From NCBI GenBank assembly GCA_025356595.1, contig JANXSQ010000357.1, positions 1 to 49,911 on the forward strand: DNA of 49,911 nucleotides, in the 5' to 3' direction. A program made the position numbers and the translations under genes. The notes beneath the pieces are model-generated. The model saw nothing but the letters and a program-made list of their open reading frames with translations. It was not told the origin of the DNA and searched no databases. This stretch comes from Janthinobacterium sp. GTDB taxonomy: Bacteria; Pseudomonadota; Gammaproteobacteria; Burkholderiales; Burkholderiaceae_D. Shown piece by piece: positions 19,366-30,375 of the stretch; positions within the stretch are counted from its first letter, which is position 1, and each line of letters opens with the position of its first letter.

Positions 19366-20184
19366 ATGGTAAGTTTACCGGAGCAGCCCACAGCCGGGCC
19401 AGGATGCGCGGCGCCGCCGCTGGAGCGCGCCGAGGCGTGCGAGCCCTATCTTGGGGCGCCGGCCAAGTACTGCGACATCAATCTCGCCCGCCTGCAGAAA
19501 ATGGGCATGGTGACGCAGGACGGCGGCCGCACCGCCGTGGCGGAGGATTTCCGCATCATCAAACGCCCCTTGCTGCGCAACGCACGCGGCGGCGACGGTT
19601 CCGCGCCGATCAAGCATGGCAACCTGATCGTCGTCACCAGCGCCTTGCCGGGGGAGGGGAAAACCTATTGCGCCATCAATCTGGCCATGAGCATCGCCAT
19701 GGAAATGGATATCACGGTGCTGCTGGTGGATGCAGACGTGGCGCGTCCCTCGGTGCTCAAGGTGCTGGGACTCGCCCCCCTGCCCGGACTGATGGACATT
19801 CTCCTCAGCGAGGAACTGGAATTGTCTGATGTGATCCTGAAAACCAATGTGCCGACACTGAGCATCCTGCCCGCCGGACGCAGCAACAAGCACGCGACCG
19901 AACTGCTGGCGAGTCGATCCATGAGCAACCTGCTCAGTGAGATAGCCAATCGCTACGCCGACCGCATCGTCATTTTCGACTCGCCGCCTCTGCTCATCAC
20001 CAGCGAAGCGAATGTGCTGGCCGCCCAAATGGGCCAGGTCGTGCTCGTTGTCGAAGCGGAAACGACCACCCAGCACGCCGTGAAGGAGGCGCTGCGCCAG
20101 ATCGAGGGCTGCGCCCATATTAATCTGATCTATAACAAGACCAAGGGTTTCCCTGGCGGCGACTACTATGGATATTACGACTAA
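19366..20184 (+). CDS. XrtA-associated tyrosine autokinase (BY-kinase)
   Basis: A 272-residue cytoplasmic BY-kinase. Walker A is ALPGEGKT (residues 93-100), Walker A' is VLLVDADVARP (118-128), Walker B is VIFDSPPLL, and the C-terminus is a short Tyr cluster (DYYGYYD) that is autophosphorylated. It acts with the Wzz-like protein 69 bases upstream to control EPS polymerisation and export. ATG 19366 is preferred because of GAGAGGTGAT just before it; ATG 19354 and 19321 are alternatives. The TAA stop lies inside the terminal inverted repeat of the palindromic element that follows, so the insertion touched the very end of the gene. Confidence 0.9.
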   Translation: MVSLPEQPTAGPGCAAPPLERAEACEPYLGAPAKYCDINLARLQKMGMVTQDGGRTAVAEDFRIIKRPLLRNARGGDGSAPIKHGNLIVVTSALPGEGKTYCAINLAMSIAMEMDITVLLVDADVARPSVLKVLGLAPLPGLMDILLSEELELSDVILKTNVPTLSILPAGRSNKHATELLASRSMSNLLSEIANRYADRIVIFDSPPLLITSEANVLAAQMGQVVLVVEAETTTQHAVKEALRQIEGCAHINLIYNKTKGFPGGDYYGYYD

Positions 20185-20346
20185 GAGCCTATCCCAGTAG
20201 AGAGCGTCGCCGGATGTCGGTCCATCGGGAGCGCGGACAAGGCGTGAGGAGGACGCATGGCTAGCCATGCTACGACGAGCAACGCCGTCCCCGCTTCCGA
20301 GGGGCCCGGCAGCAGGCGGCGCCTCGTCTACTGGGACAGGCTCTAA
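20182..20346. repeat. MITE-like long palindrome A
   Basis: About 165 bases with terminal inverted repeats TAAGAGCCTATCCCAGTAGA and, on the other strand, TTAGAGCCTGTCCCAGTAGA (two mismatches in 20). The arms remain imperfectly complementary inward and meet at a perfect 16-base palindrome, GCATGGCTAGCCATGC (20255-20270). No coding capacity. It could fold into one long hairpin and act as a bidirectional terminator. Confidence 0.8.
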
Positions 20347-20519
20347 GTACCCCATCGGAATAAATTGTGAGATGGCTGTGGTGCTGGTCGGAAGCGATGC
20401 AAGGCGCCCGTTCCGCCGCAGTGCGAGCACTGCAAGGGACGGGCAAGACTCGGCGTCCCCCTTGCAGCGCACCGGCCAGAGCCACAGACGTCCACACTTT
20501 ATTCTGATGGGGTACTTAG
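20343..20519. repeat. MITE-like long palindrome B
   Basis: About 177 bases abutting element A. The terminal inverted repeats are CTAAGTACCCCATC-N-GAATAAA with a single mismatch (20343-20364 and 20498-20519). Inner arms share CTGTGG, CTGG-N-CGG and TGCAAGG blocks in mirror order and meet at GCAGTGC-GA-GCACTGC (20418-20433). Its sequence differs from element A, so these are two families side by side. Confidence 0.8.
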
Positions 20520-20554
20520 CGCGCCGCGCGCATGGGCCACCCCCGCCGCCGGCG

Positions 20555-21622
20555 TCAGCCTGGCCGCGGCTGCTCCGCCGGGAACAAGCTGAGGTAGCAG
20601 CTGGCGATCTGCGCGGCCACCCGCTCCCATGTCAGGTGGCTCACCAGGGCCCGCACGGCGCCCCGTTCGGGGGGCGCCTCGAGCAGGGCGCGCACGGCCA
20701 GGCGCTGCCCGCAGGGATCATCCCAACGCACTTTTTTCAGGGCGAAGTCGGCGCCGGGCAGTTCCAGGGCGCTGTCGACGGTCATCAACACCGGAGTGCC
20801 GGCGGCCAAAGCCTCCAACACGCTGAGGGGAAAGACCTCGCCCTGGCTGGGCAGCGCCACCACGGTGGCGGCGCCGTACGCGCTGGCCAGCAAGGGGTCG
20901 GCGTGATCCAGCGCCCCCAGCCAGTTAACGTGCGGCATGCGCAGCAGGTCCTGCAGATAGACCGGGTCGCTGCGCTGCGGCGCGCCTATCAGTACCAGGG
21001 GCAGTTCGGTGTCGAGCAGGGCGCGCGCCAGTCCCAGCTGGTTTTTGTACGGGGAAATGGCGCCCACCACCAGCACGAACGGTCCTACGATGCCGGTGAC
21101 CCGGCGAAACAGGGTCTCGTCCGCACCAAAAAACTGTGGGTTCACGCCGTTCGGATACACCTGGATTTTCCCGGGCTCGATCTGGAAGCCGGAAATGATG
21201 GCCTGCCGCTCCGGTTCGCCGAGCGCGATCACGCGGTCCGCCAGTTGCAGCGCCCGCTTGCTCTGGGCGTAGTTGGTTTGGACGTTCCACGTCGTCAGCT
21301 TGCCGGTCAGACGCTCGGCGAGGCGCGCCACGATGCCCGAGCGGTGGTCCCAGGCGGGCGACAGCAGGGCCGATAGCACCACCGGCAGCCCCCGTTCCTT
21401 GGCAAGTTCGACGATACGATAGTTGCCATTGATCGCGGAAAATACATGAATCAGGTCATAGTCATCGACGCGCTCGCGCGTCGGGTCGAGCAACTCGACA
21501 CGCAGGCCGCGCGGCGGCCCCGGCGGCAGGCGGTTCAAGGCGGCGATCGTCTCGCGCACCTGGATCTGCAGGCCGCCGTCGCGCTGGAACAGCATCGGGT
21601 AGGACAAAATGCCGACGCGCAT
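20555..21622 (-). CDS. Glycosyltransferase, GT4-like
   Basis: A 355-residue GT-B fold glycosyltransferase. The ATG at 21622 has GGGGAGGGG about eight bases upstream, and the first residues MRVGILSYPM form the usual first beta strand. N-terminal acceptor-side motifs include GGLQIQVRETI and DLIHVFSA. The donor-side Rossmann domain has VYPNGVNPQFF, VGAISPYKNQ and the nucleotide-sugar E-x7-E region in SQGEVFPLSVLEALAAGTPV. Probably adds a sugar to the EPS repeat unit on the cytoplasmic side. It points against the kinase gene and is separated from it by the two palindromic elements, so the original operon order may have been broken. Confidence 0.82.
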   Translation of the reverse strand: MRVGILSYPMLFQRDGGLQIQVRETIAALNRLPPGPPRGLRVELLDPTRERVDDYDLIHVFSAINGNYRIVELAKERGLPVVLSALLSPAWDHRSGIVARLAERLTGKLTTWNVQTNYAQSKRALQLADRVIALGEPERQAIISGFQIEPGKIQVYPNGVNPQFFGADETLFRRVTGIVGPFVLVVGAISPYKNQLGLARALLDTELPLVLIGAPQRSDPVYLQDLLRMPHVNWLGALDHADPLLASAYGAATVVALPSQGEVFPLSVLEALAAGTPVLMTVDSALELPGADFALKKVRWDDPCGQRLAVRALLEAPPERGAVRALVSHLTWERVAAQIASCYLSLFPAEQPRPG

Positions 21623-21976
21623 GGATGGCCCCTCCCCTATTGAACGGACAACGGCGCTGGCCGGCGGACAAGGCCACGCCTGGAAAGCGCGCGGTACCCA
21701 GCACGAGGCGGGCGATGCGCACCGACGCGGGCATTGCAAGGCCACTCGATCCCGTATTGGAATGATATAGAGCGCCGGGCGGACGGGCCTGATGCGCGTC
21801 AAGCGCCCGGGGCCCCACAGTCGCCGCGTGCCGAAGCTTGCGCCGATTCAAATGGTGCGGCGGTTGGCCGGTGTTTAATGGCTACAGTCTGCATACGCTT
21901 GGCGCTGCGTCCCTTCCGGCGGTGCAGCCCTTCGTTCCGCGCCGGCGCGATGAATGGTCCGTCCGATGGAGTTCTT
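21623..21976. other. Divergent intergenic region
   Basis: About 354 bases between the minus-strand glycosyltransferase and the plus-strand acyl carrier protein. It should hold both promoters. I looked for sigma-54 sites because PrsR is a sigma-54 activator; the nearest candidate, on the minus strand around 21734-21750, has the wrong -24/-12 spacing. No repeat or RNA gene is recognised. Confidence 0.4.
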
Positions 21977-22222
21977 ATGCCCCACCTCGAAGCGATGAAA
22001 AACATCCTCTCCAACACGCTTGGCCTGCGCCGCGCCGAACTGAGCGCCGACACGCCGCTGCTGGGCGCCATGGGCGAACTCGACTCCATGGCCACCGTCG
22101 GCCTCATCGCGGCGCTGGAGGCGCATTTCGGCATCGCCATCGCGGACGATGATGTGCACGCCCGCCATTTCGCCACGCTGGGCAGCCTGACCGCCTTCGT
22201 GCGCGAGCGGACACGCACATGA
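21977..22222 (+). CDS. Acyl carrier protein, EPS-locus associated
   Basis: An 81-residue acyl carrier protein. The phosphopantetheine attachment site is S37 in GELDSMA, within a four-helix ACP-like pattern. ATG 21977 follows GGAG with a five-base gap; upstream in-frame codons give a non-homologous extension. Lone ACPs are known beside exosortase-A EPS genes with an acyl-AMP ligase, presumably carrying an acyl group that modifies the sugar or protein, but no ligase is present here. Its stop overlaps the next start in an ATGA. Confidence 0.85.
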   Translation: MPHLEAMKNILSNTLGLRRAELSADTPLLGAMGELDSMATVGLIAALEAHFGIAIADDDVHARHFATLGSLTAFVRERTRT

Positions 22223-22971
22223 AGGCGCCGCCGCCGTCCGCCCCCGGCCGCGCCGGCCGCTGGAAGGGAGGCACTGCCGTGTGCGCCCTTCTGCTGTACG
22301 CGGTCTGCGTCTGCGCGCGCGCCCAATGCGGCACCGCCGAGCGCATCAACAGCGGCGGCGACTACATCGACCCGAACGACAGCGGCAAGCTGAGGACGGT
22401 CGAGAGCGCGCATTTCACCAAGGACGTCGAAACCCTGGTGCGCGGCGCCTCGTCCAGCGTCGGCGACGACATCGCCTATACGCTGGGCCACTTCCCCAAC
22501 CATCACAGGGCGCTGGCCTCGATCGCCAAACTGGCTTTGCGCAACAAGACCGGCAAGGTCGCCGGCGCCAAGTTCACGGTCGTTTGCTACTTTGAGCGGG
22601 CCATCCAGTTCAGCCCGAAAGACCCGTCCGTGAGAATGATTTACGCGTCTTACCTGATCGCCGTCGGCCAGCCCGACACGGCCTTGCTGCAATTGCGCGA
22701 AGCCTTGCAGCAGGCGCCGCGCCATCCCACCCTCAACTACAACCTGGGCTTGCTGTATGCGAAGAGAAAGGACTACGAGCAGGCGCGCATCTACGCCTGG
22801 AAGGCCTACGAGCTCGGTTTTCCGCTGCCCGGCCTGAAAAATCAATTGAGCGCCGCCGGCCAGTGGCGGGAGGCGCCGCCGATGCCGCCGCCGTCACCCG
22901 CCGCTCCGGCGACGCGGGTTCCGGACGAGGGAGCACCGCCGGCGCGGGAAAAAAGCCCGGCGCCCGACTGA
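22219..22971 (+). CDS. Exported TPR-containing protein
   Basis: A 250-residue protein with an N-terminal signal peptide (hydrophobic stretch AVCALLLYAVCVC, cleavage after ARA). Residues ~115-215 hold two to three tetratricopeptide-like repeats (FERAIQFSPKDPSVRMIYA; LNYNLGLLYAKRKDYEQA). The C-terminal ~35 residues are Pro/Ala-rich and disordered. I do not recognise a named family. It is translationally coupled to the acyl carrier protein (ATGA) and converges on prsR, so an EPS-related envelope role is an inference from position. Confidence 0.75.
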   Translation: MKAPPPSAPGRAGRWKGGTAVCALLLYAVCVCARAQCGTAERINSGGDYIDPNDSGKLRTVESAHFTKDVETLVRGASSSVGDDIAYTLGHFPNHHRALASIAKLALRNKTGKVAGAKFTVVCYFERAIQFSPKDPSVRMIYASYLIAVGQPDTALLQLREALQQAPRHPTLNYNLGLLYAKRKDYEQARIYAWKAYELGFPLPGLKNQLSAAGQWREAPPMPPPSPAAPATRVPDEGAPPAREKSPAPD

Positions 22972-22982
22972 GGCCCCGCCGC

Positions 22983-24329
22983 TCACTTGATGCCGTGATG
23001 GCCCATCAAGTCGTACAGCGTCGGCCGGCTCACCCCCAGCAACTCGGCGGCCTTGAGGATGTTGCCGTCGGCCCGCGCCAGCGCCTTCACCATCACCCGG
23101 TACTCGGCCGCGTCGCGCGCCTGGCGCAGATTGATCGCCTCCTCGACGGCGCAGGCCTGCGGCAGGCCCAGATCATCGACACCGATCTGCGGCCCGTCCG
23201 ACATGATCACGGCCCGTTTGATGCAGTTCTCCATTTCCCGCACATTGCCCGGCCAGCCATAGGACTCGATCGCCGCCAGCGCGGCGGCGCTGAAGTGCAG
23301 CGACGGCCGCCCCTCGCTGGCGCACAGTTTGTTCTTGAAATGGTGCGCGAGCAGGGCGCTGTCGCCGACCCGCTCGCGCAGCGGCGGAATCATCAGCACG
23401 ATCTCGCTGAGGCGGTAAAACAGGTCTTCGCGGAAGCGCCCGGCGCAGGCCTGTTCCTTCAGGTTCTGGTGCGTCGCGCAGACGATGCGCACGTCGACGG
23501 CGATCTCGGTGCGCCCGCCGATGCGCTCGATCACGCGCTCCTGCAGGAAGCGCAACAGCTTGGCCTGCAAGCCCGGCGCCATGTCGCCTATCTCGTCGAG
23601 AAAGAAGGTGCCGCCGTGGGCCAGTTCGATCTTGCCCAGGGTCAGCTTGGCGGCGCCCGTGAACGCGCCCTTTTCATAGCCGAACAACTCGCTCTCGAGC
23701 AGGTTTTCCGGAATCGCCGCGCAATTGATGGCGACGAAGCGCTTGTCGTGGCGCGCGCTGAGCGCATGCAGGCCGCGCGCGATCAATTCCTTGCCGCTGC
23801 CCGAGTCGCCCAGCAACATCACCGTGGCCGACGAGGGCGCCACCTTTTCCACGCTGCGGCACAACTTGAGCATGCCGGGATCGCGGCTGACGATGCCGGC
23901 CAGCGGAGAATCGGCCTGGGTTTGCAACATGCGGCGGTTTTCCTGTTGCATGGCGTGCAGATAGAAGGCGCGCTCGATCACCAGCGCCAGCATGTCGGCG
24001 TCGAAGGGTTTCTGGTGGAAATCATACGCGCCCATGGCGATGGCCTTCAAGGCGTTGGCGCGGTCCTGGTTGCCCGAGAGGATGATCACCTTGCTGTCCG
24101 GCGCCAGGGCGAGGATTTGCTGCAGGGTGGCCAGCCCCTCGCTGGCGCCGTCCGGGTCGGGCGGCAAGCCCAGATCCATGGTCACCACCGCCGGCATGTG
24201 GCGCCGCATATGCGCCAGCGCCGCTTCGCGCTCGCCGGCCGCCAGGACCTCGTAGGCCGACAGGCTCCAGCGCAATTGCTTTTGCAAGCCTGCGTCGTCC
24301 TCGATCACCAACACTTTTTGCTTGGACAT
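22983..24329 (-). CDS. prsR: PEP-CTERM-box response regulator PrsR (sigma-54 activator)
   Basis: A 448-residue NtrC-type regulator. The receiver domain has D11, D12 and phospho-acceptor D52 plus K107. The central AAA+ domain has Walker A GDSGSGK (174-180) and the sigma-54 contact loop GAFTGA (221-226). A Fis-type helix-turn-helix occupies the C-terminus (AAELLGVSRPTLYDLMGHHG). The family switches on PEP-CTERM and EPS genes with RpoN. The start at 24329 has GGAGG upstream. It lies 28 bases after prsK, its kinase partner. Confidence 0.95.
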   Translation of the reverse strand: MSKQKVLVIEDDAGLQKQLRWSLSAYEVLAAGEREAALAHMRRHMPAVVTMDLGLPPDPDGASEGLATLQQILALAPDSKVIILSGNQDRANALKAIAMGAYDFHQKPFDADMLALVIERAFYLHAMQQENRRMLQTQADSPLAGIVSRDPGMLKLCRSVEKVAPSSATVMLLGDSGSGKELIARGLHALSARHDKRFVAINCAAIPENLLESELFGYEKGAFTGAAKLTLGKIELAHGGTFFLDEIGDMAPGLQAKLLRFLQERVIERIGGRTEIAVDVRIVCATHQNLKEQACAGRFREDLFYRLSEIVLMIPPLRERVGDSALLAHHFKNKLCASEGRPSLHFSAAALAAIESYGWPGNVREMENCIKRAVIMSDGPQIGVDDLGLPQACAVEEAINLRQARDAAEYRVMVKALARADGNILKAAELLGVSRPTLYDLMGHHGIK

Positions 24330-24357: not shown

Positions 24358-26400
24358 TCACGCCGGTGTGGCGCCCTCCCCGTGCAGCGGCAATATCACG
24401 CGAAATGTGGTGCCCTGCGCCGGCTCGCTGCTGACCTCGAGTTGTCCGCCCACCTCGCGGATGTATTCGCGGCTCTCGAACACGCCTATCCCCATCCCCG
24501 CCGCCTTGGTCGATTCGAAAGGCTTGAAGAGACGTTCGCGGATGAACTGTTCGCTCATGCCCAGGCCGTTGTCGCACAGCTCCACCACCGCGCTGTCGCG
24601 CTCGCGCAGCAGGCGCACCAGCACCCGGCCATCCTTGGCCGTGGCCTCGATGGCGTTCTGGATGATATGGCCGAGCACGCGCTCGAGCCGGCCCCAGTTG
24701 GCCAGCACCGTCAAGCCGCCCTGCGCCACCTCCAGCACCGGCGCCGGTTCCGAACCCGCCCGCGCCGACACGGCTTGCGCCAACAATTGATCGAGCTGCA
24801 AGGGCGCGGCCACATCCTGGCTCTGGCCGCGGCTGAGCTTGTGCAGCAGCAGCGTCATCTTGTTCACCGAGTAGTCCAGCGTGCCCAGCATGTCGCGCTG
24901 GAAGTCCGGATTGGCCCGGTGCTTTTCGGCGTTGCTCAACAACAGGGAAAGCTGGAACACCAGGTTTTTCAGATCGTGCACGATGAAGGTCGACATGCGG
25001 TTGAAGGATTCGAATTGGCGCGCCACCAGCAGCGAATCGGCCGACTCCCGGTGCGCCAGGTAACCGGCCGCCTGGCTGCCGGCGATCTTCAGCACGTCCA
25101 GCACCTCCCAATCCAGGCTCATCGGCGTGCGTGGATGGGCCAGCGCGACGAAGCCGAACAGGCGACCGTGCAGCATCAACGGCACCACCAACCACAACTG
25201 CGGCAAGGCCAGGACCCAATCGGGCATGGGCATCCCGTTCGGCCGCGCCAGCCATTCGGGTACGTCGATGACCCACTGCTTCGTTTCCAGGTGGCGGCAA
25301 AACGCGCTGGAAGCCGACTCGACCGCCGTCTGCGCCGGCATGTTCCAACTGGCCGCCGGCTCGCAGCGGTCTTGTTCGCGGCGTATCCACAGCGCCCCGG
25401 CCGGACTCTCCACCAATTGCGCGACCGCCTGGATGGTCCGCTCCCCCAAGCCGGGCCCATCGCCGGATAGCGCGCGCGTGAAGCGCAACCATTCCTCGCG
25501 GTAGTCGAAGCTGGCCGTATAAAAATGCTTGCTGATGAATACCTTCAGTTTCGAGCGCAGGGCGCCGGAAAACAGCACGCCGGCCAACAGCAGCCCCGCC
25601 CCGCCCAGATAGGCGACTTGCATCACCGGTCCCCAGGCGCCGCCGAAGTAGCGCAGGTAGTAGGCGCTGGAGGCCATCGCCAGAAGATAAATGGCGGAAC
25701 CCAGCAAGGCGGCGGAGCGGAACATCATCTGCCGCGACAAGGCCAGTCCCAGCTTCCAGGCCGGATTGCGCGCCGCCGACAGCGCGATCAGCGGCGCGGC
25801 CAGGGCGTTGACGATACCGCGCGCGGTCCAGATTTCCGGACTCACGGCGCGGAACAGCAAGGCGTCGCTATACAGGTAGAAATCGTAGACGAACAACGCG
25901 CCTATGCCCAGGCAGGCGAACTTGATGCCCCAGCGCTGCGGCGCCGGCGTGTTGCGGTACCACTGCTCGACGAGCAACATCCCCAGCACGGCCAGGAACA
26001 GGCGGCTGAACAGCACCGCCAGCAAGGCCGCGCTCGCCAATGGCGCGGCCAGCGCGCCGGCCAGCAACTGCGCGGCGGCCAGCGCGGCGATGGCGAGCAG
26101 GCAGGCGTTCAGGCGCAAGCCCGCCGGTTCCAGCAACAACAGCACGAACACCAGCCAGGCGCCGGAGCGCAGCACCTCCAGCAGCGCGCCGTACCAGGAC
26201 AGCGGATGGGCCCACAGCTCCAGGGCCACGGTGCCGGCGGCCCACAGCGCCGTCAGCAGGCAGGCGCCCGCCAGCGCGCGGGCGTTGCGGCGGGCGCGCC
26301 AATTTCCCAACAACAGCATGGAGAGCAGCAGGAAGCACAGCGAGGCCAGGCCATAGCTGAGCGCCGCCACATCGCCGCCCGACAAGGCCCCCGGCGTCAT
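24358..26400 (-). CDS. prsK: PEP-CTERM system histidine kinase PrsK
   Basis: A 680-residue sensor kinase. About ten hydrophobic segments fill residues 10-285 and form the membrane sensor. A GAF-like domain follows (about 315-460). The phospho-acceptor is H475 in FIVHDLKN, and the ATPase domain near the end shows N (IIQNAIEA), DNGLGM and the glycine-rich GMGIGVFES. It should phosphorylate PrsR. The ATG at 26400 overlaps the stop of the upstream sugar transferase (ATGA), so it depends on that transcript; a longer in-frame extension is a shadow of the transferase gene. Confidence 0.93.
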   Translation of the reverse strand: MTPGALSGGDVAALSYGLASLCFLLLSMLLLGNWRARRNARALAGACLLTALWAAGTVALELWAHPLSWYGALLEVLRSGAWLVFVLLLLEPAGLRLNACLLAIAALAAAQLLAGALAAPLASAALLAVLFSRLFLAVLGMLLVEQWYRNTPAPQRWGIKFACLGIGALFVYDFYLYSDALLFRAVSPEIWTARGIVNALAAPLIALSAARNPAWKLGLALSRQMMFRSAALLGSAIYLLAMASSAYYLRYFGGAWGPVMQVAYLGGAGLLLAGVLFSGALRSKLKVFISKHFYTASFDYREEWLRFTRALSGDGPGLGERTIQAVAQLVESPAGALWIRREQDRCEPAASWNMPAQTAVESASSAFCRHLETKQWVIDVPEWLARPNGMPMPDWVLALPQLWLVVPLMLHGRLFGFVALAHPRTPMSLDWEVLDVLKIAGSQAAGYLAHRESADSLLVARQFESFNRMSTFIVHDLKNLVFQLSLLLSNAEKHRANPDFQRDMLGTLDYSVNKMTLLLHKLSRGQSQDVAAPLQLDQLLAQAVSARAGSEPAPVLEVAQGGLTVLANWGRLERVLGHIIQNAIEATAKDGRVLVRLLRERDSAVVELCDNGLGMSEQFIRERLFKPFESTKAAGMGIGVFESREYIREVGGQLEVSSEPAQGTTFRVILPLHGEGATPA

Positions 26401-27143
26401 CGACTGCCCTTGCCGAACAACACCACCTGCACCGTGTCGAGCAAAATCAAGAGATCGAGGAAGAGGCTGTTGTTTTTGACGTAGTACAAATCGTATTGCA
26501 GCTTGCGCACGGCATCGTCGACCGAGTCGCCGTACTGATAGTGCACCTGCGCCAGGCCGGTGACGCCGGGCTTGATGCTGTGGCGCACATTGTAATAGGG
26601 CACCTCGCGGCCCAGGCGCTCGACAAAAAACGCCCGCTCCGGACGTGGACCGACGAAACTCATCGCGCCACGGAACACGTTCAGCATCTGCGGCAGTTCG
26701 TCGATGCGCAGCTTGCGCAGCCAATGGCCGCCGCGCGTCACGCGCGGGTAGGCCGCTGCGGCCCAGACCGGCTGGCCGCCCGGTTTGGCGTCGATGCGCA
26801 TGCTGCGGAACTTCAGCACATGAAACAAGCGTCCGTTGATGCCGACCCGCTGCTGTTGATACAGGACGGGGCCGCCGTCCTCGCAGCCGGCAGCAAGCTC
26901 GGCGTCCACCAGTTCACCGTCGCCGGCTGCGTAGCCGTGGCCGGCGAGCCGTGTTGCGTACCGGCCGCCATGCTGTTGCCGGGCGAGGCCTCGCTGCTGG
27001 CCATCGCCCCCCAGCACGAACACCAGGCTGCCGCGGCTGGCGAAATGAATCGCCGGCACCAGATGGAACAGCAACTCCAGCAACTCCAGCAACAACAGAA
27101 CGAAGGCCATCCTCGAGACGTAATGGCTGAAAATCCGTATCAT
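26397..27143 (-). pseudogene. Rearranged EPS undecaprenyl-phosphate sugar transferase
   Basis: The C-terminal ~145 residues are a bacterial sugar-transferase domain (GPVLYQQQRVG, VLKFRSMR, RIDELPQMLNVFRGAMSFVGPRPE, YYNVRHSIKPGVTGLAQV, LQYDLYYVKN, VVLFGKGSR). The first ~25 residues (MIRIFSHYVSRMAFVLLLLE) match the N-terminus of the exosortase-A EPS transferase family. The open frame is only 248 residues against about 460 expected. The second to fifth membrane helices are mostly gone, the KR-x-FD membrane-entry helix before the catalytic core is missing, and residues ~42-88 are non-homologous because that stretch appears inverted. The frame stays open throughout, so a protein could be made, but normal activity is doubtful. 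Its stop overlaps prsK. Confidence 0.7.
26877..27020 (+). pseudogene. Inverted internal fragment of the sugar transferase
   Basis: On the plus strand, frame starting 26877, this encodes about 47 residues including GVHQFTVAGCVAVAGEP and LLPGEASLLAIAPQHE. These resemble the central Rossmann-like domain of the same EPS transferase family (F-x-V-x-G-x-V-x3-GE, then SLL-x-A-x2-H). They are flanked on both sides by minus-strand transferase sequence. Recognition is from family pattern memory, not an alignment. Confidence 0.55.
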
Positions 27144-27356
27144 GACCGCTCCCGCGCCGCAGCGAAGCCGTCTGCGGCCCAAGGGCACCACGCCCACGCA
27201 AATGGCCAGTCCATCATGGCTCAGCATTGGGGAGCGGTGTTGAGCCGCCACAAGCGGCGGACCCGACCAGATAAACGCGCCTGAAACTGGCGCAATACCC
27301 AGCGCGCTGATACCAAATGGACTATAGTATGCTTCCTCACAAAAAAACGACTAGTC

Positions 27357-28970
27357 ATGAAATTTGATGTAGCGATTGTCGGCAGCGGACTGGCGGGTTT
27401 GTCAGTCGCGCTCCATCTGGCTGAAACGCGCACCGTCGCGATCATTTCCAAACGCGCGCTGCTGGACGGCGCCAGCAACTGGGCCCAGGGCGGCATCGCC
27501 GCCGTCCTCGACTCCGGCGACAGCCACGCCCAGCACATCGACGACACCCTGGTGGCCGGCGGCGGCCTGTGCGACGAGAGCGCGACCCGCTTCATCGTCG
27601 AGCACGGCCGCGAGGCGATCGAGTGGCTGATCGACCAGGGCGTGCCCTTCACGCGCGACGCCAGCGCCGAACTGGGCTTCCACCTGACCCGCGAGGGCGG
27701 CCACAGCCAGCGGCGCATCATCCACGCCGCCGACGCCACCGGCCACGCCGTGCAGGTGACGCTGGAGGAGAAGGTGCGCGCGCACCCGAACATCACCCTG
27801 TTCGAACACCACTGCGCGATCGACCTGATCACCTCCGACAAGCTCGAGCACAAGCGCGGCCAGCACAACGCCCAGCCGAAATGCCACGGCCTGTACGTGC
27901 AGGACGAACAGAGCGGCAAGGTGTTGACCTTCGCCGCCGAGCAGACCGTGCTGGCCACCGGCGGCGCCGGCAAGGTCTACCTGTACACGACCAATCCGGA
28001 CACCGCCAGCGGCGACGGCATCGCCATGGCCTGGCGCGCCGGCTGCCGCGTCTCGAACATGGAGTTCATCCAGTTCCATCCGACCTGCTTGTACCATCCC
28101 TACGCGAAATCCTTCCTGATCACGGAGGCGATCCGCGGCGAGGGCGGCCTCTTGAAGCTGCCGCCCGAGGCGGGCGCGGCGGCCGGCACCCGTTTCATGC
28201 TGGCCCACGACGCGCGCGCCGAGCTGGCGCCGCGCGACGTCGTCGCCCGCGCCATCGACTTCGAGATCAAGAAGCGCGGCCTCGACTACGTGCACCTGGA
28301 CATCAGCCACAAACCGGCCGACTTCCTCATTGAGCACTTCCCGACCATCTACGCGCGCTGCCTGGAACTGGGCATCGACATCACCAAGCAGCCCATTCCC
28401 ATCGTCCCGGCGGCCCACTACACCTGCGGCGGCGTCGTCACCGACCTGTCCGGGCGCACCGACCTGCCCGGCCTGTACGCGGTCGGCGAGACGGCCTGCA
28501 CCGGCCTGCACGGCGCCAACCGCCTGGCCAGCAATTCCCTGCTGGAATGCCTGGTCATCGGCCGCGCCTGCGCCCACGAGATCGAGAAAAGCGAACGCAT
28601 CCCCGTGCCCTATCTGCCCGACTGGGACGAAAGCCGCGTCACCGACGCCGACGAGGAAGTGGTCATCTCGCACAATTGGGACGAGTTGCGCCGCTTCATG
28701 TGGAACTACGTCGGCATCGTGCGCACCACCAAGCGTCTGGAGCGGGCCCAGCACCGCATCGCCCTGCTCAAGGAAGAGATCGACGAGTACTACCGCAACT
28801 TCCGCATCACGCACGACCTGCTGGAACTGCGCAACCTGGTCGACGTCGCCTCGCTGATCGTCAACAGCGCCCTGTCGCGGCGCGAAAGCCGCGGCCTGCA
28901 CTTCAGCCGCGACTATCCGGAAACCCTGCCGAAGGCCTTGCCGAGCGTGCTGACGCCGGCGCGCCGCTAA
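27357..28970 (+). CDS. nadB: L-aspartate oxidase
   Basis: A 537-residue FAD enzyme that oxidises L-aspartate to iminoaspartate, the first step of de novo NAD synthesis. The dinucleotide-binding GSGLAGLS lies at residues 9-16. Flavin and active-site blocks are visible: [27 protein letters not shown] and [20 protein letters not shown]. The start is ATG 27357; a TATAGT at 27323-27328 is a possible -10. The product feeds NadA, encoded at 40925-42058 on the other strand. Confidence 0.97.
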
Positions 28971-28971
28971 A

Positions 28972-28995
28972 CCGGCGCAAGCGCGGCGCCGGCTT
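28972..28995. terminator. Hairpin between nadB and roxA
   Basis: CCGGCGC (28972-28978) pairs perfectly with GCGCCGG (28986-28992) around a seven-base loop, immediately after the nadB stop. Only two T follow, so it is a weak intrinsic terminator serving convergent genes. Confidence 0.5.
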
Positions 28996-29061
28996 CAGGC
29001 CCTCATGGTCTGCGCCCGGCGCCGCGCCTCTTATGTGGCGGGCGGCGCCGTCCTTGTCGCC

Positions 29062-30207
29062 TCAATCCTGGAAATACCAGAAGCCGCCGTTCACCCATTG
29101 CGTCAACTCCGCCACGAAGGCCGGCTGCTCCAGCCACGCCGCGAGCGTCGCGTGGCTCAGGCGTTCCTCGTCGCACAGCGCCAGCACGGCGCCGCGCGCG
29201 CCGGCGCCGAAATCGTGGCGCTCGCCATTGACGTAGCAAATCCCCTCGTCGACCGTCTCGTCGAGATAGAAACACCGCAGGCCGCCGATGCGCAGCAGAT
29301 CCTGGCGCGCCAGTTCCTCCAGCAATTCCGGCGCGCCGAAAGGCTCCTCCAGTTCCTGCAGATCGAGCTGGCACTTGGTCTTCGACAGATAGGCGCCGGC
29401 GAAATCGGCGATCAAGGCCTTGTCGTCGAGCAGCGCCTGCAGATGCGCCCGTATGCGCGCGAAATCGCTGGCGTCGACGCGCCCCTGTTGATGATGGCGC
29501 GGGCGCTGCGGATCCTCGATCAGGGCATTGCCCAGCTCCTTGTCGATCAAATGGTCGGCCAGGCCGCTGAGCATGTCGCGCGCCGATTTGGTGCGGAAAC
29601 CCACCGAAAAACTCATCGACTCCTCCAGCGTCACGCCGTCGTGGGGAAAGCCGGGCGGAATGTAGAGTATGTCGCCGGGTAGCAATTCGACATCGATGAT
29701 CGCCTCGAAGGGATCGGTGTGCAGCAGCGCCGCGTGGGCGGCGAACTGGCGGTGATTGCCGCGCGCGCCGACGCGCCAGCGGCGCCGCCCCGATCCCTGG
29801 CAGATGAAGACGTCGTACAGGTCGATGTGCGGCCCGACGCCGCCGCCCGGCGTCGCGTAACTGACCATCACATCGTCCATGCGCCATTTGGGCAGGAAGG
29901 AAAAGGCGCCGACCAGCTCCGCCACCTCGGGCGACCAGTGATTCACGGCCTGCACCAGCAGCGACCAGTCGCGCTCGCCGAGCCGTTCATACTCCTCGAA
30001 GGGACCGCCCTCGGCCTGCCAGGCGTCGCCTTGCTTGTAGACCAGGCGCGATTCGATCTGTTCTTCGCAGGCCAGGCCGGCCAGTTCGTCGGCGCTGATC
30101 GGGTCGCGCCAGTCCGGCAGGCCCTGGCGTATCACCAGGGGTTTTTGCTGCCAATAGTGCTCTAGAAAATGTTCGATGGAGAAATCGGTCAACTGAAGTT
30201 TTAACAT
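29062..30207 (-). CDS. roxA: Ribosomal protein L16 arginine hydroxylase (JmjC/cupin)
   Basis: A 381-residue homologue of E. coli YcfD/RoxA, a 2-oxoglutarate- and iron-dependent oxygenase that hydroxylates an arginine of ribosomal protein L16. The iron ligands are visible: H127-x-D129 in GPHIDLYDVF and H189 in IPPGFPHDG. The N-terminal cupin domain is followed by a helical dimerisation region and a winged-helix C-terminus, as in the family. It starts 248 bases from hcnA on the opposite strand. Confidence 0.93.
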   Translation of the reverse strand: MLKLQLTDFSIEHFLEHYWQQKPLVIRQGLPDWRDPISADELAGLACEEQIESRLVYKQGDAWQAEGGPFEEYERLGERDWSLLVQAVNHWSPEVAELVGAFSFLPKWRMDDVMVSYATPGGGVGPHIDLYDVFICQGSGRRRWRVGARGNHRQFAAHAALLHTDPFEAIIDVELLPGDILYIPPGFPHDGVTLEESMSFSVGFRTKSARDMLSGLADHLIDKELGNALIEDPQRPRHHQQGRVDASDFARIRAHLQALLDDKALIADFAGAYLSKTKCQLDLQELEEPFGAPELLEELARQDLLRIGGLRCFYLDETVDEGICYVNGERHDFGAGARGAVLALCDEERLSHATLAAWLEQPAFVAELTQWVNGGFWYFQD

Positions 30208-30331
30208 GGTGTGCGCAGGGAACGGTGAGCCGCCTGTTGTACCAGCATCGCCGGCGCATAGATATCTCCAGGATCAAGGAAAACAAGATTCCCCTCCCGC
30301 CCCGGGCGACGGCGTGTATTCCTATTCAATT

Positions 30332-30375
30332 TAGGACTATTCCTAGTTACAGTCAAATTATCATATTGCTATAAT
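30332..30375 (+). promoter_or_regulatory. hcnA promoter with palindromic operator
   Basis: An extended -10, TGCTATAAT (TATAAT at 30370-30375), lacks a good -35 (TTACAG at 30347-30352). A perfect inverted repeat TAGGA-CTAT-TCCTA lies at 30332-30345, centred about 43 bases before the predicted transcription start. That is the position used by class II activators such as LuxR- and FNR-type proteins. The motif does not match the FNR consensus. Confidence 0.55.

Follow-up and report, generated by a model that had tools for sequence, protein, structure and literature searches.

According to an excerpt of PMC10942596, the large enzymes of the monotopic phosphoglycosyl transferase family carry a four-helix bundle and the accessory domain PF13727 ahead of their catalytic core. 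For the small enzyme PglC, part of PMC6133551 describes a re-entrant membrane helix that anchors the enzyme and is central to its structure and function, the P24A variant being inactive. The proteins PrsK, PrsR and PrsT were proposed as a regulatory set of the XrtA/PEP-CTERM system in an excerpt of PMC1569441. As regards overlapping gene pairs, a section of PMC10666635 reports that in two E. coli pairs restart of translation needed no more of the upstream gene than its final 15 nt, and that earlier stops reduced restart.

The gene described here lies on the minus strand of the window, that is, the whole stretch of 49,911 nucleotides of Janthinobacterium sp. DNA that was analysed. Its position between nadB and prsK is the one that the TIGR03013 gene (EpsB_2, a large monotopic phosphoglycosyl transferase) holds in the closest relative, genome G022, and like TIGR03013 proteins it encodes a C-terminal Bac_transf catalytic core. 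Unlike them, it retains little of the membrane bundle and of the accessory domain, and one of its pieces is inverted. In length and catalytic core it resembles the small monotopic phosphoglycosyl transferases of the PglC type, but the re-entrant membrane helix that PglC retains (part of PMC6133551) is deleted in it. With the termination-reinitiation pairs described in the cited section of PMC10666635 it shares an open upstream frame, a 4-nt overlap and a constrained downstream gene; in this case the upstream frame belongs to a rearranged gene remnant, part of which is read antisense, and the coupling is putative. We consider the gene to be real but inactivated, a remnant of the priming sugar transferase of the resident XrtA system, possibly acting as a translated leader for prsK, with a probability of about 0.6.

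Anatomy of the rearranged gene

The gene was compared with the G022 locus (L002), whose homologue measures 1389 nt including the stop. The window's own genome (G000) is a draft of 419 contigs with 2.45% assembly contamination. The following features were recognized:

26397..27143, minus strand: rearranged epsB2-type gene, 248 codons plus stop, open frame, TIGR03013-related (blastn)
27085..27143, minus strand: 5' piece, residues 1-19, start of membrane helix 1; gene 0-59 equals L002 0-59, forward and ungapped
27069..27093, minus strand: 2.8 tandem copies of a 9-base repeat, marking deletion joint 1 (Tandem Repeats Finder and joint alignment)
27008..27073, minus strand: short piece from the region of the third/fourth membrane helix, forward, ancestral frame retained, one codon added; right limit approximate
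26886..27007, homologous sense plus: inverted piece of 122 bases, part of the accessory domain (blastn and alignment)
26397..26885, minus strand: 3' piece encoding the Bac_transf catalytic core (PF02397) but not the re-entrant membrane helix; orientation forward, ancestral frame kept
26397..26400, minus strand: ATGA overlap of the remnant's stop and the prsK start, read in the sequence
24358..26400, minus strand: prsK, XrtA/PEP-CTERM histidine kinase, intact (TIGR02916, 804 bits; omega 0.074)
22983..24329, minus strand: prsR, PEP-CTERM response regulator, intact (TIGR02915, 708 bits; omega not significantly different from the rest)

A sequence-only reading had placed the gene in the exosortase-A EPS sugar transferase family, and the assignment was borne out by homology to intact genes of the genus and by the TIGR03013 profile, which gave 284.1 bits for residues 82-248 against model positions 278-443, a score below the curated cut-off of 393.35. 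Residues 79-248 are 79% identical to the G022 homologue. The same reading had described a continuous frame of 248 residues where about 460 would be expected; the frame is indeed open, while the 23 intact genes of the genus measure 1383-1398 nt without the stop, mostly 1386 nt (462 aa). The net loss relative to L002 is 642 nt, or 214 codons.

This loss is composed of two lesions. At the 9-base repeat, whose unit is CAGCAACTC (Tandem Repeats Finder, 27069-27093), about 219 nt (73 codons) are absent relative to L002, and gene index ~70-136 then aligns, forward and without loss of frame, with L002 289 to ~351 and has one added codon. This short forward piece was matched by blastn in L002 (27030-27073) and L007 (27006-27074) only. 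A repeat marking a deletion joint after the first helix had thus been pointed out correctly from the letters, with limits of 27060-27095 that are now narrowed to those given above.

In the second lesion, about 547 bases have given way to 122 bases from this same gene in inverted orientation, so that gene index 136-258 corresponds to L002 471-593 reversed, and 256 to the end corresponds to L002 898 to the end, forward and in frame. Within the minus-strand frame, the inverted piece is read in the codon-on-codon antisense register. An internal inversion had been proposed at about 26877-27020; the inversion itself is present and its limits are 26886-27007, where the sequence is 82% identical to L002 (blastn, E 4e-29), which also upholds the proposed homology of the plus-strand fragment to the central domain. 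Among the 24 genus loci compared by blastn, one (L024) was set aside because its gene is cut by a contig end, and the query 26201-27400 gave an opposite-strand match flanked by forward matches in all 23 full-gene loci. A chance match is ruled out by these opposite-strand matches together with the E value to L002. By eye, about 2-4 bases are common to both sides of the joints of the inverted piece, as far as a relative of only 82% identity can tell, and this pattern would fit microhomology-mediated repair or template switching. Literature searches on template switching and short inversions returned no evidently related case among the matches listed, and a search joining Janthinobacterium, exosortase, polyprenyl glycosylphosphotransferase and pseudogene returned only sponge-disease papers among the matches listed.

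Membrane parts and catalytic core

The hmmscan search against Pfam found only PF02397 in the remnant (2.4e-53, model positions 26-178 of 179); since the match begins at model position 26, the re-entrant membrane helix is gone. The accessory domain PF13727 was not detected in the remnant by the Pfam search, and 122 bases of that region are left, in inverted orientation. In agreement, the hydropathy profile of L002 has a re-entrant peak at 278-296 besides its N-terminal helix peaks, and this 278-296 peak is missing in the window protein, which shows one N-terminal peak, fused from two old stretches, and one C-terminal peak. The fused N-terminal stretch is hydrophobic (peak 2.25) and carries two glutamates inside the helix. 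The AlphaFold model of intact L002 has four N-terminal helices, a bundle that the window protein lacks by hydropathy and by its deletions; the mean pLDDT is 74.5 for L002 and 59.2 for the window protein. The differences between the two models are as expected for a damaged protein, and the comparison was given little weight, as confidence is low and the aligner placed the re-entrant-helix columns over inverted residues ~59-78.

The catalytic part is better preserved. D148 and E149, which we take to be the Asp-Glu catalytic pair of the monotopic phosphoglycosyl transferase superfamily, are invariant in 43 aligned sequences including the window protein, most core motifs are kept, and the DELPQ motif is present. 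The structure chains 8e37 and 8g1n, presumably of the PglC type to judge from the enzyme name, match window residues 92-245. Judged from its sequence, the 248-residue protein is most likely inactive: having lost the re-entrant membrane helix and the greater part of the membrane bundle, the product would be unable to prime polysaccharide synthesis.

Distribution in the genus

A search of 40 genus genomes with residues 1-105 gave matches (E 0.01 or better) in 38 of them, and the whole query was matched in the window's own genome only. The 37 other genomes match it in separate fragments, the 5' piece forward and the inverted piece on the opposite strand, and G013 and G053, both incomplete genomes, gave no match to this query. 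A short form shared by the lineage is ruled out, as none of the 39 other genus genomes (two of them without a match) has it; the expectation that no relative would carry the same 248-residue protein end to end therefore held. TIGR03013 matches above the cut-off were found in 37 of the 40 genomes, in the window's genome only through another contig, C197.

Possibly damaged homologues were also encountered elsewhere. In the single-contig genome G042 (L174, G042:C1:4272900-4276800) the homologue is frameshifted and its frame ends before prsK, which may be real or a sequencing error. TIGR03013-type matches with one internal stop were seen in G159, G187, G198, G238 and G122, from other genera of the family, and breaks or end effects may explain them.

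Deletions in the resident cluster and a second XrtA/EPS set

The window is collinear with G022 except for gaps, and the large gaps of about 17.8, 13.5 and 3.0 kb leave a total of about 34 kb absent:

20183..22338, no strand assigned: three scars in the XrtA/EPS cluster, with breaks at 20183-20595, 21661-21977 and 22205-22338 relative to G022

The 17.8-kb gap, at the first scar, holds xrtA of G022. When test segments of the absent DNA (4,643 and 3,206 bases) were searched in the window's genome, long matches (74-78%) were found on C197 only, the other matches being short, up to ~130 bases. C197 (loci L150, L151 and L031) encodes an intact TIGR03013 protein of 475 aa (557 bits), a PrsK (818 bits) and PrsT, as well as an exosortase-A-associated ligase and decarboxylase, XrtA, and a PrsR frame recognized by similarity to the window's. 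PrsK is found in 39 of the 40 genus genomes, with two copies in G000 only, and XrtA is above the cut-off in 36 of the 40, the only one of G000 being on C197.

The C197 transferase was compared in 294 sampled family genomes, 116 of which gave a match at E 1e-150. Its best matches are from other genera (up to 70% identity), Janthinobacterium genes reaching 58-63%, and its nearest neighbour among the 103 others in the alignment of 104 homologues is from Pseudoduganella aquatica. As it is closer to other genera than to Janthinobacterium, the C197 set, on the sequence comparison, looks foreign and horizontally acquired. GC contents are 0.656 for the window, 0.680 for C197 and 0.689 for the G022 region. 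With the assembly contamination of 2.45%, C197 could also be a contaminant.

On the preferred reading, the cell would have acquired this second XrtA/EPS set, which would have made the resident transferase dispensable. The resident cluster would then have been cut back, with the prsK-prsR branch left behind, and the replacement of the pathway would have relaxed selection on the resident transferase, which the two lesions inactivated.

Two further observations concern gene content around such clusters. Genomes G045 and G047, listed as complete, have PrsK and TIGR03013 matches above the cut-off, and their exosortase is only of a weaker second type, with none above the XrtA cut-off. In the window, a 381-codon minus-strand frame lies beside nadB at 29062-30207, the corresponding G022 stretch (window 28971-30358) being only about 180 bases long; this frame gave no NCBIfam match at 1e-10.

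Selection on the remnant and on prsK

In the conservation alignment of 104 homologues (a few genomes occur twice, and L076 was dropped, having no usable frame), the window protein departs from the other sequences at three columns where these are at least 98% conserved (E120K, D132Y and R201H), the highest number of the 104. The next highest is two, in five sequences, and 85 sequences have none. Private amino acids among 24 genus sequences amount to 19 of 161 positions in the window protein, 4 in its sister L002, and 18 in the distant L025, whose gene is intact. The counts for the window protein speak for relaxed constraint, the L025 figure against it.

Omega values were estimated by a home-made branch codon model on a topology set by hand, the ML tree having three nodes at support 45-55. 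For the catalytic part, nine taxa gave an omega of 0.113 on the window branch and 0.060 on the other branches (p 0.09); six taxa gave 0.092 and 0.049, respectively (p 0.13), neither rise being significant. Neutral evolution along the whole window branch was rejected (omega fixed at 1, p 5e-8). With omega well below 1 on this branch, either the inactivation is recent or some constraint remains; the catalytic core is constrained over most of the window branch, and its relaxation is recent or partial. For prsK, omega was lower on the window branch (0.074) than on the others (0.129; p 0.012), and the same model gave no significant difference between the window branch and the rest for prsR and nadB.

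The inverted piece differs from L002 at 9, 6 and 7 sites by ancestral codon position, a third-position share of 0.32; in 157 intact pairs differing at 15 or more sites, this share is nowhere below 0.39. Against all 23 relatives the mean third-position share is 0.50 for the window and 0.48 for L002, and because these means are so close, dating of the inversion by codon positions was set aside as weak.

Open frame and possible coupling to prsK

The codon-on-codon antisense register of the inverted region is open in 21 of 23 relatives, the next register in 14 and the third in none. The chance of an accidental open frame is about 0.056, or 1 in 18 (1/3 x 0.51 x 1/3), a figure that is suggestive at most because the finding was picked for being open. 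When random substitutions were simulated, 20 changes left the whole frame open in 56% of cases and 40 changes in 30%.

The overlap with prsK noted in the sequence-only reading was confirmed as ATGA at 26397-26400. Of the 23 intact genes of the genus, 15 end in ATGA, 7 in GTGA and 1 in CTGA, the prsK starts there being putative. By eye, AAGGG stands a few bases ahead of the prsK ATG, and a sigma-70 scan of 26300-27400 found no promoter for prsK. By analogy with the described pairs, the remnant frame may still bring ribosomes to prsK, and a role as translated leader is plausible: ribosomes would cross the remnant and restart at prsK by termination-reinitiation, so that a frame-breaking version would lower prsK expression. 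In G042, where the frameshifted homologue ends before prsK, the coupling would be dispensable unless the frameshift is a sequencing error.

Alternative explanations

Of the three readings that had been offered from the sequence, the best supported is that of a dead gene whose translation still runs into prsK. A related possibility is plain decay without any role, in which a GC-rich gene happens to have an open frame and has not yet acquired a stop, and prsK uses its own ribosome site. The antisense register that happens to be open in nearly all relatives, the simulated frames that often survive, the AAGGG shortly before the prsK ATG, and the retention of prsK in G042 despite the frameshift upstream are all compatible with this, but the frame was preserved through two lesions, apparently separate ones, and the ATGA/GTGA stop/start geometry occurs in 22 of the 23 intact genus genes (with putative prsK starts); we regard decay without a role as a lesser, rather doubtful possibility. 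An assembly or amplification error, with an intact gene in the strain and a mis-joined contig, is unlikely. It is suggested by the fragmented, partly contaminated draft and by joints that are not shared by any other genome examined, but it fits poorly with the private changes at near-invariant residues of the catalytic part, with the extra codon and 9-base repeat in or beside the pieces, and with the three larger deletions in the same cluster. Moreover, the only other TIGR03013 match above the cut-off in G000 is the divergent C197 gene, and of 36 rows for other frames shared between the window and G022, 32 have no stop in G022. The other four have one stop each: prsK, PrsT and SpoVR, whose stops seem to lie outside the window frames as judged by frame limits, and one doubtful antisense frame.

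The gene might also encode a remodelled working protein, in which the chimeric helix anchors a trimmed catalytic core and about 41 antisense-read residues form a new linker. Omega well below 1 in the catalytic part, the retained DELPQ motif and the hydrophobic fused stretch would agree with such a protein. This reading came out weak, because the re-entrant helix is gone, which in PglC anchors the enzyme and contains the Pro24 needed for activity (part of PMC6133551), and near-invariant residues are changed (E120K, D132Y and R201H, all private); the two glutamates in the fused helix and the lower mean pLDDT than in the intact relative, with an alignment that is unreliable over the inverted part, also speak against it, and we consider it very unlikely. 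It is likewise improbable that the scrambled frame is under selection, either as a new chimeric membrane protein with ~41 former-antisense codons or as a selected leader, serving PrsK-PrsR after the pathway replacement. We therefore retain the inactivated transferase with a possible leader role; the remnant is an unusual scar of an ordinary process.

Significance

The locus provides a clean example of a compound lesion: a deletion is combined with inverted retention, and the resulting frame is open and overlaps the following gene. A gene caller could therefore label such a remnant a normal sugar transferase. The older XrtA/EPS system of this genome has apparently given way to another, but its sensor-regulator pair survives, and this PrsK-PrsR makes the question of what maintains an orphaned pair testable.
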